Below, piece after piece: positions 27,262-49,258 of a DNA stretch of 64,000 nt; within the stretch, counting starts at the first letter, position 1, and each line of letters opens with the position of its first letter. Below the pieces are notes generated by a model. That model was not told the origin of the DNA, did no database searches, and saw nothing but the letters and a program-made list of their open reading frames with translations. The position numbers and the translations under genes are program-made. The DNA is from Sipunculus nudus (Eukaryota; Annelida; Sipuncula; Golfingiida; Sipunculidae): positions 48,982,695 to 49,046,694 of the forward strand of contig CM049316.1 in NCBI GenBank assembly GCA_026874595.1, read 5' to 3'.

Positions 27262-27279
27262 ATGTTGATCAAAGTGAAG
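27262..27279 (+). CDS. NEDD8: NEDD8 coding exon 1 (MLIKVK)
   Basis: The start codon at 27262 is followed by five codons and then a donor GTAAGC at 27280. The exon lies in a locally less AT-rich stretch that also holds two YY1/CTCF-like motifs. The 5' UTR probably extends upstream without another intron, but no transcription start can be fixed from sequence alone. Confidence 0.93.
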
Positions 27280-48200: not shown

Positions 48201-49258
48201 TTCATATTTTATATATCATCATAACAGGCATGGTCAAAGCAACAAGTTGGTGGGTCTTTTATTGTTTTGGAATTAAAAATTGATGTCTTTTTTTTCCCGT
48301 ACCCATAACACGGTATTTCTCACTAAATCCTGAATATTTCAGTAATGTCCTTTGTTAAGGTGCTTTTATATTGTGTAATCCTTGATCATGTGTGAGCAAA
48401 ATTTTCTGAGTGTGTGATATAAACCCAAATCAGGTCATAAATTGATAAGTTGATCAATTTCTTCCATACAGAGGAATAATGAGTTGTCAGTTTCTAGATT
48501 GTGTGCTAAGGGAAATTCTCCTGAACTTTGTACAACTTTTGACCTCAATACTTACCTATTGCATATGTCTGACATTTATCTTCTGAATGGGCTTGGTAAA
48601 AGCAACAATTTGATGGGTACTTTGTTATTCTATTTTAAAAGGTTAAGGAGTTATGTTCATTTTAATTTCCCCTACCCCTTAAGTGGGTGACAAAATCTTC
48701 AGTTTTTATGGTGCAAATAAACAGTCCAAAACCAGTACTAAGTCCCAGTTTATTCATTGTTTACATCCTTAAAATCAAAATATAGGCATATAGCAATAAG
48801 AAACATGAGGTTTTGCTAATTGGTGGTTGGGGGGGGGGGGGGTGGCAAGGTGGGTCCCTCAAGCAAGTGGACTACAGTGGGTCACTTGTTATATAAGTTT
48901 GATGATTATTTTGAGACTGTCACAGTTTTGTGCTTTACAGTCATATATTTTTTTTATTTAGCCTCTGAACTGCAGTATAGTGTTTTGAATGCTAATGTAA
49001 AATTTAAAAAAAACCTCATTGGTCCCTGGGATTTACACAGTTACTTTCATTGACAAATTCAGCTGTGACCCATTGGACTCTTTGACATATGACATCAGTT
49101 TCATCACTTCTGAACAAACTACTTCATGGTGTGAATTATTAAGAACAATTTACATTTTATGCTTCTGACTGTGAGCATCAGTTATTTCTGTCATTAAATG
49201 TCTGAAATTGCTGTCATTTGTTTTGTAGATTGAGATTGACATAGAGCCAACAGACAAG
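27262..49258 (+). CDS. NEDD8: NEDD8 ubiquitin-like modifier, N-terminal part (three exons, 3' end outside window)
   Basis: NEDD8 is a ubiquitin-like protein that is conjugated to cullins and so activates cullin-RING ubiquitin ligases. The coding exons join 27262-27279, 27408-27425 and 49229-49258, all in phase 0. They encode [12 protein letters not shown] and [10 protein letters not shown], the first 22 residues of the beta-grasp fold. These agree at every position with animal NEDD8 as I know it, and they differ clearly from ubiquitin, which has TLTGKT then LEVEPSD. Every border is GT/AG, with pyrimidine-rich or T-rich acceptors. The ATG has an A at -3. About 50 more residues, including the C-terminal diglycine, must lie to the right of the window; I searched the + strand after 49258 by eye and found no exon starting VERIK. 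The gene is intact as far as seen. Ubiquitin and RAD23 are ruled out by sequence. Confidence 0.95.
27408..27425 (+). CDS. NEDD8: NEDD8 coding exon 2, an 18-nt microexon (TLTGKE)
   Basis: A long T-rich tract and CAACAG acceptor end at 27407. Eighteen nucleotides encode TLTGKE, and a GTGAGC donor begins at 27426. The length is divisible by three, so skipping this exon would keep frame but remove the loop between the first two beta strands. Intron 1 before it is only 128 bp (27280-27407). Confidence 0.93.
27426..31195. other. NEDD8 intron 2, first low-copy stretch
   Basis: Apart from the inverted repeat at 29952-30208 and two short TA runs (29012, 29110), no elements are recognised. A strong acceptor-like site ends at 28728 (CCTCATTTCTTTTGACAG), followed by an open stretch of 11 codons and a stop. 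A GCTGGC-rich simple repeat lies at 28310-28440. Confidence 0.5.
29952..30208. repeat. Inverted repeat with ~57-bp arms
   Basis: Arms at 29952-30008 and 30152-30208 share TTGTTTCAG, TAGTGGTGTGCA and GCATGTGTTACATCA in opposite orientation, about 85-90% identical by eye, with a ~143-bp loop. The loop holds a further duplication of TGTGTAGCCAGTGG. It could be a small foldback element. No target duplication was identified. Confidence 0.65.
31196..32160 (+). mobile_element. Family-A element A4, internally deleted, with tandem 3' block
   Basis: The 5' hairpin and TCCG tract (31196-31270) run into a shortened core. A block starting TAGCTATTGAATTATTTTACT is then repeated at 31527, 31801 and 31981. 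A poly-G run of varying length follows that block start in the second and third copies. No 3' terminus is seen. Confidence 0.7.
32476..35054 (+). mobile_element. Family-A element A5, complete
   Basis: Both termini are present: the 5' hairpin at 32480 and the 3' CAGCTGAGC plus GACCCATAGGTC ending CCCTTG. Two related ~680-bp core units (TTAGATGTCCCC at 32601, TTAGATGTCTCC at about 33281) lie in the first half. The second half is AT-rich and shared with A6 and A11. It lies in NEDD8 intron 2. Confidence 0.85.
35210..36061 (+). mobile_element. Non-autonomous Helitron, 852 bp
   Basis: It starts TCTAATACTTATAA after a host A. It ends with the palindrome CCCGGTATACCGGG (36036-36049), then eight bases and CTAG (36058-36061), followed by T. 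These are the canonical Helitron ends and insertion context. No coding capacity for Rep/helicase is present. Confidence 0.88.
36062..37690. other. AT-rich intronic DNA between the two Helitrons
   Basis: Only the poly-C tract and AT-rich sequence are seen. The short frames here show no family resemblance. Confidence 0.5.
36584..36608. repeat. Poly-C tract
   Basis: About 25 C residues, the longest homopolymer in the window. Other C or G runs of 9 or more lie at 1234, 7553, 10261, 22590, 23399, 27659, 31826, 31985, 48829, 50742 and 63540. Confidence 0.85.
37691..38682 (+). mobile_element. Non-autonomous Helitron, 992 bp, second copy
   Basis: It has the same TCTAATACTTATAA start and the same end (CCCGATATGCCGGG hairpin, CTAG at 38679-38682, then T). 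It is longer than the first copy because of extra internal sequence. Short open frames inside are not conserved between the copies. Confidence 0.88.
38850..39551 (+). repeat. 280-bp-type monomers before the ISL2EU relic
   Basis: Homologous to 8045-8800 of A3, including the introductory segment with ACATGTGAACTGGTGCC. The array resumes at 41019-41470, so the transposon landed inside it. Confidence 0.7.
39782..39961 (+). pseudogene. YqaJ-like exonuclease domain fragment, 59 codons
   Basis: The frame from ATG 39782 to TAA 39959 encodes 59 residues. It has the typical YqaJ C-terminal sequence: a K-L-I-L-N-K-K-H strand, then QVQAQIACTG, NCSFVGF and FNEVFW. The QVQ-Q motif and the hydrophobic strands match YqaJ/lambda-exonuclease-type nucleases carried by animal ISL2EU transposons. 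The same frame is open upstream (39692-39772) but is cut by a stop at 39773-39775, so this is the tail of a longer, broken gene. The N-terminal nuclease half is not recognisable. Confidence 0.7.
40060..40782 (-). pseudogene. ISL2EU/Harbinger-like DDE transposase relic
   Basis: Read on the minus strand, 40782-40459 encodes 107 residues including EFLVTLVHIRRG and GTLSNYKQKHS, which resemble the front of the transposase catalytic core. Shifted frames then give PGSIYDAA (40434-40411), TLNMPIF and YVERAIRQIK (about 40220-40190). These carry the second acidic residue and the E of the V-E-R-A-I helix expected in this superfamily. The first aspartate appears replaced by tyrosine. Several stops and frame changes show it is dead. 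The 159-codon + strand frame over the same bases is its shadow. Confidence 0.65.
40881..40902. repeat. (AC)n microsatellite inside the ISL2EU relic
   Basis: AC run of about 22 bp just inside the right inverted repeat. Confidence 0.85.
41019..41470 (+). repeat. 280-bp-type monomers after the ISL2EU relic
   Basis: Continuation of the array at 38850-39551. Contains GGTGGTGCCACC near 41154 and GGTGGCACCACC near 41297, and ends like the 3' side of A3 (CATGCCTCACT). Confidence 0.65.
41610..42000 (+). repeat. Family-A core fragment without ends
   Basis: It matches the CTGCCTAATATCAAAA-containing core of A5/A6 but lacks the hairpin and the 3' palindrome. Confidence 0.65.
42203..44624 (+). mobile_element. 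Family-A element A6, complete
   Basis: The layout is as in A5, with a clean (GTCC)n run at about 42259-42287 after the hairpin. It is a close relative of A5 and A11 along the whole length, with small deletions (for example at 43021-43050). Confidence 0.85.
44640..45254 (+). repeat. D-type array fragment next to A6
   Basis: Units with GGTGGCACCA variants and the CATATCTCAGGAGTGG segment fill the space between A6 and A7. Confidence 0.55.
45255..47547 (+). mobile_element. Family-A element A7, complete, with a different core
   Basis: The 5' hairpin at 45259 is followed by one A3-type monomer (45350-45620). Monomers of the SNNGGTGGCACCACC-type D array follow (45640-46500). The 3' block (46860-47547) matches the 3' part of A2. 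So the same ends enclose a different set of core repeats. Confidence 0.75.
47590..48010 (+). mobile_element. Family-A element A8, 5' part only
   Basis: The 5' hairpin at 47594, an imperfect TCCG tract and one core unit are present. Similarity fades after about 48010, and no convincing 3' end is seen before exon 3 of NEDD8. Confidence 0.65.
48011..49228. other. Intronic DNA directly before NEDD8 exon 3
   Basis: Diverged repeat debris to about 48890 (with a G14 run near 48829), then low-copy DNA up to the exon 3 acceptor. No further gene is seen. Confidence 0.5.
49229..49258 (+). CDS. NEDD8: NEDD8 coding exon 3 ([10 protein letters not shown])
   Basis: The acceptor TTTTGTAG ends at 49228. Thirty nucleotides encode [10 protein letters not shown] in phase 0, and a GTAATG donor begins at 49259. 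This exon is an island of low-copy DNA between repeat-derived stretches, 21.8 kb downstream of exon 2. The next expected residues (V-E-R-I-K) are not found before the end of the window. Confidence 0.93.

Follow-up and report, generated by a model that had tools for sequence, protein, structure and literature searches.

The question raised by this locus is whether three very short coding pieces, spread over 22 kb, form the beginning of a NEDD8 gene and, if they do, whether that gene is functional and how far its layout departs from NEDD8 in other animals. Cullin ubiquitin ligases are activated by NEDD8, without which most of the animals studied cannot live; given this central role, a gene model that is missing or begins late distorts comparative work. 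Within the window, by which we mean the whole 64,000-nucleotide stretch of DNA analysed, the pieces lie on the forward strand exactly where the initial annotation had placed them: the coding part of exon 1 at 27262..27279 (MLIKVK, NEDD8 residues 1-6), exon 2 at 27408..27425 (18 nt; TLTGKE, residues 7-12) and exon 3 at 49229..49258 (30 nt, residues 13-22). They are separated by intron 1 (27280..27407, 128 nt), which follows codon 6, and by intron 2 (27426..49228, 21,803 nt), which follows codon 12. Joining the pieces gives 66 bases that translate into residues 1-22 of NEDD8, and it bears out the GT/AG borders and the phase that had been claimed for them, since AG precedes the second and third pieces, GT follows all three, and every border is in phase 0.

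The quality of these borders is uneven. When every GT in the window (3535 sites) was scored with a generic donor matrix, exon 1 (AAG/GTAAGC), exon 2 (GAG/GTGAGC) and exon 3 (AAG/GTAATG) had the donors of rank 3, 2 and 61 respectively. The acceptors of exons 2 and 3, the latter reading TTTGTTTTGTAG, are merely average: judged on their pyrimidines, each is equalled or bettered by 741 of the 3138 AG sites, and by T content this is true of 1594 of the 3138 sites for exon 2 and 208 for exon 3. The description of the gene as having three exons of 18, 18 and 30 nt over 22 kb holds for the coding pieces only; because the 5' UTR must lie in exon 1 and add to its length, that exon must exceed 18 nt. Being a first exon with a 5' UTR, exon 1 is not a microexon, if the term is kept for internal exons no longer than 30 nt and flanked by two splice sites; judged from their sequence, exons 2 and 3 are both of this kind. 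The upper limit varies between papers, at 27 or 30 nt. Exon 2 is within both limits and is a clear microexon, whereas exon 3 is within the 30 nt limit only, counting as a 'small exon' (>27 nt) in the usage of PMC8378409, and is borderline.

The identity of the 22 residues is secure. They match human NEDD8 in the PDB (1ndd_A) at 22 of 22 positions (E 6e-9), as had been claimed, while single ubiquitin chains reach an E of only about 0.006 with the same query, and over these residues the N-terminus is of the NEDD8 type, distinct from that of ubiquitin. Plant RUB1 aligned over residues 1-21 with an E of 2.2e-8, scoring below 1ndd. Six linear polyubiquitin chains are placed above NEDD8 in the PDB table, but only because repeated weak matches, each worth some 12.6 bits in the alignments shown, are summed. 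The Pfam ubiquitin family gives a partial match of 16 bits (E 0.01), below its cut-off of 25.4. A complete NEDD8 would have the whole ubiquitin fold of some 76 residues. Further marks of NEDD8, the C-terminal LRGG and Ala72, belong to the other end of the protein. Six-residue pieces are by themselves too common to be proof, and the whole could be supposed to be a chance resemblance; yet a six-frame translation of the window contains each of the three peptides exactly once, against expectations from base composition over 128,000 positions of 0.0026, 0.0020 and 4e-9 for pieces 1, 2 and 3, computed before any splice border, order or strand was required. Every other place in the window has at least five mismatches to the ten-residue piece (residues 13-22). 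The three expectations multiply to about 2e-14, a joint figure that already refutes coincidence and leaves it with practically no probability.

The surroundings of exon 1 resemble the start of a gene. A probable promoter and 5' UTR region at 27001..27261 on the forward strand is richer in CpG than its surroundings; the observed/expected ratio is 0.89 and 0.95 in the two quarter-kilobase blocks of 27001-27500, compared with 0.0-0.41 in the AT-rich kilobase before 27001 and 0.35-0.74 in the 2.5 kb after 27500. In-frame TAA and TGA stops lie 5' of the NEDD8 ATG, and upstream ATGs occur at 27020, 27112 and 27156. On a larger scale, the 45 half-kilobase blocks between 27.5 and 50 kb have a median CpG ratio of 0.36, and the 54 blocks that precede 27 kb one of 0.76 (P 1.3e-6). 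Since methylated repeats can also deplete CpG, the comparison was repeated with within-window repeats masked, giving 0.30 (19 blocks) versus 0.84 (38 blocks; P 7.6e-6). The step is not clean; the 25.75-27.0 kb interval is also CpG-poor, intron 2 includes a CpG-rich stretch at 35-36 kb (ratio 0.97), and beyond 50 kb the median recovers to 0.52, tandem arrays included. In the oyster, gene bodies and young repeats accumulate methylated CpGs (PMC4378273), and the pattern seen here would fit a gene with broad expression and a methylated body, its start lying near 27.2 kb.

Neither tblastn with a human NEDD8 query nor an ungapped scan found residues 23-76 in the 14.7 kb right of exon 3, and so the search that had been proposed there, for exons encoding VERIKERVEE and for the C-terminal glycine pair, came back empty for that interval. 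In the ungapped ten-residue scan the best forward-strand site right of exon 3 had 6 of 10 identities, as did the best on the other strand, while five shuffles gave 5 to 7; all candidate later exons were dropped, their best score being at shuffle level. The window thus holds only the 5' part of a NEDD8 gene, and NEDD8 is demonstrated for residues 1-22 only. If the gene continues, then intron 3 begins at 49259 and runs to at least 64000 on the forward strand, a length of at least 14,742 nt, because no later exon was found in the window; the exons for residues 23-76, with the C-terminal GG, would lie beyond 64,000.

This missing 3' end, in a region rich in repeats, is what might be expected of a partial or decayed extra copy, such as a segmental duplicate that has lost its end while a working gene resides elsewhere. 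Against such decay, all 22 residues and all five splice borders are intact, the first two donors are strong, and CpG is low across most of intron 2; we consider the extra copy improbable. A processed pseudogene is ruled out by the presence of introns. The 21.8 kb between exons 2 and 3 could also be taken to mean that they belong to separate transcripts, for instance that exons 1 and 2 are unused and exon 3 is joined to another first exon; proteins whose match starts at residue 7 after another start are indeed common in vertebrates (54 of 178 listed records). However, the pieces share strand and phase and stand in the correct order, neither has another copy in the window, and not one of the 34 ORFs of at least 75 aa in intron 2 reaches a Pfam family cut-off, which makes separate transcripts a shade more doubtful again than a decayed copy. 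We take the locus to be a normal NEDD8 gene from an invertebrate, functional and represented here by its 5' part, a reading that its sequence makes very probable.

To place the three borders in a wider context, we compared NEDD8 records from other organisms, using two protein searches whose best 120 of 2180 and best 120 of 1605 matches together comprised 178 distinct proteins; since residues 7-12 had been cut out of the second NEDD8 query, which favours records broken there, the following counts are not a survey. Reading back from residue 13, residues 1-12 are fully matched in 75 of the 178 listed records. In 54 others residue 7 is the first to match; by name these are mostly vertebrates, but they also include Drosophila guanche and two Macrobrachium prawns. 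In 10 the match begins at residue 13; other starts are at residue 6 (n=4), residue 2 (n=2), residue 11 (n=1) and residue 12 (n=1), with residue 13 itself unmatched in one record and 30, mostly plants, not fitting the test. Among the 141 listed records bearing EPTDK, five are broken near the boundary of residues 22 and 23, and in three of these an insert separates K22 from V23 at precisely that point (P0061 and P0070 from the squirrel family, and P0093 from a carp). One other listed protein, P0101 from the weevil Rhynchophorus ferrugineus, consists of two ubiquitin-like units in tandem, each of which shows NEDD8-like features.

The boundary between residues 12 and 13 recurs in several protostome records. 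In Batillaria attramentaria (P0174), TLTGKE and IEID are separated by 27 additional residues; the Lymnaea stagnalis record (P0167) opens with MTFLQ and joins the NEDD8 sequence only at residue 13 (MTFLQ/IEID); in the ant Cataglyphis niger (P0121) MLIKVK runs directly into IEID; and records from a termite (P0168) and a wasp (P0169) are broken exactly between the two residues. In P0165, 21 residues running from V to FQ separate E12 from I13, and these look like a 63-nt intron that has been read through. The value of a bare break as evidence for an intron is weakened, though, because two fish (P0122, Oncorhynchus kisutch, and P0123, Sinocyclocheilus) and the vertebrate-type P0160 are also broken at residue 13, without a further mark; if vertebrates lack the intron, our guess is that these breaks come from a hidden acceptor at GAG/ATT or from prediction error, and the breaks in the ant P0121 and the termite P0168 could have the same cause. 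Q stands directly before I13 in four of the ten records that start there (P0164, P0165, P0167 and P0169), just as it stands directly before residue 7 in 23 of the 54 that start at that position. A Q of this kind, as from ...CAG, would together with P0174 and P0165 be stronger evidence for an intron than the breaks alone.

From these proteins, the introns after codons 6 and 22 look shared with vertebrates, and the simplest reading of the intron after codon 12 is that it is old in protostomes. Vertebrate NEDD8 has the same first 22 residues as the gene described here and break points after residues 6 and 22, but its residues 7-22 are apparently encoded by one 48-nt exon, whereas here they are divided into 18 and 30 nt by a 21.8-kb intron. 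The snail and insect records (P0174, P0167, P0121, P0168 and P0169), compared as proteins only, show the break between residues 12 and 13 that would be expected of the same intron. With two of its three borders seemingly common to vertebrates, the gene is less exceptional than was suggested by the initial annotation, which had presented it as NEDD8 hidden in three tiny exons; we regard it as a real, probably old and ordinary gene with an unusually dispersed start, that is, as the inherited layout of a well-known gene and not a new kind of gene. Among the literature matches listed, no title concerns the structure of the NEDD8 gene; for mouse Nedd8, PMC12420789 places loxP sites ahead of exon 2 and behind exon 3.

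The dispersed layout is real, and gene finders can easily overlook it. The warning that most automated annotation would omit such a gene, or begin it late, is justified for some species, in which records start late, skip an exon or are padded, but 'most' is too strong when at least 75 of the 178 listed records are intact. As far as protein records can indicate, errors between residues 12 and 13 are borne out by the late start in Lymnaea, the missing exon 2 in the ant and the padding in Batillaria, although the ant record (P0121) may represent a true skipped isoform instead of an annotation error. That annotation often misses the smallest microexons (≤15 nt) has already been published for plants (PMC8831610). 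Since the border at residue 12 recurs in both snail and insect records, a simple annotation check is possible: an animal NEDD8 should begin with the standard first 16 residues, or something nearly identical.

In proposing how such a gene could be spliced, we need to explain how exons of 18 and 30 nt would be recognised, exons of such small size being poor targets for exon definition. Transcription would proceed rightward from near 27.2 kb. The intron to the left of exon 2, at 128 nt, is short enough for intron definition, and exons 1 and 2 have two of the best donors in the window; we therefore propose the joining of exons 1 and 2 as the first step. The 18-nt exon 2 would then merely end a first exon of normal size, and the strong donor of this composite exon (GTGAGC) would then pair with exon 3 across 21.8 kb. 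Exon 3, with long introns on both sides, would have to be recognised alone as a small exon, unaided by a short intron. For the protein to function, the inclusion of exon 2 would need to be constitutive, because skipping it keeps the frame but drops residues 7-12. There are partial precedents in work on Caenorhabditis elegans and mouse cells, where intron definition is proposed for microexons, and where replacing the long upstream intron of the C. elegans unc-13 microexon with a very short one made it independent of PRP-40 (PMC8378409). However, the microexons of that study are alternative and mostly neuronal, and constitutive splicing is reported to be little affected (PMC8378409), and in plants the introns upstream of microexons tend to leave later (PMC8831610), the opposite of the order proposed here for NEDD8. 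More generally, the animal microexons that have been studied well are for the most part neuronal and subject to regulation, a pattern of which this locus gives no sign. One might go further and suppose that constitutive 18-nt and 30-nt exons, spread over more than 36 kb, combine with in-frame skipping of exon 2, as in the ant form MLIKVK/IEID, to tune the supply of NEDD8, but we give this idea only a slender chance of being correct. The locus offers a clean case in which to test how constitutive microexons are spliced: its 18-nt exon is flanked by one short and one giant intron, and its 30-nt exon has a very long intron on each side.

Repeats explain much of the gene's dispersion, because sequence repeated elsewhere in the window makes up 56% of intron 2 (fraction 0.559) and, beyond exon 3, 72% of what follows. 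No nested gene was recognised in intron 2, where none of the 34 ORFs of at least 75 aa, all scanned with Pfam, rose above a curated cut-off and four weak matches had E values of 0.01 to 0.05; a nested gene with shorter exons would escape this list. To the right of exon 3, four of 17 such ORFs were scanned with Pfam. No tRNA and no Rfam family at gathering scores was found in the window.

Several individual repeats can be described. A Ty3/gypsy-type retroelement at 17304-21540 (forward strand) carries aspartyl protease, reverse transcriptase, RNase H, and the zinc finger and core of an integrase, on several ORFs in different frames; the closest listed records to its integrase part have 62% identity and the first named one is from Mytilus edulis (55%), with fish and a sponge also among the named records. 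Together with the style of the repeats, this makes a mollusc a mere guess at the source of the DNA. Left of this element is an inverted repeat (16728-16861 and 17064-17197) of 134 nt, 97% complementary with a spacing of 202 nt. Two further inverted copies (15161-15484 and 35209-35532), about 20 kb apart, are 90-93% alike and lie in high-CpG patches; they are perhaps young insertions, the second one within intron 2. Tandem arrays include two with a 180-bp unit, at 52228-54484 (9.9 copies) and 61631-62302 (3.7 copies), and one with a 336-bp unit at 4732-8038 (9.8 copies, 83% matches), which has repeated short ORFs on the minus strand. Finally, nine copies are listed of a dispersed repeat that contains TTAGCTCAGCTGAC... 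as well as GTCCGTC runs, at 2988, 4658, 13146, 31193, 32475, 42199, 45254, 50503 and 51693, some of them directly ahead of longer repeat families.
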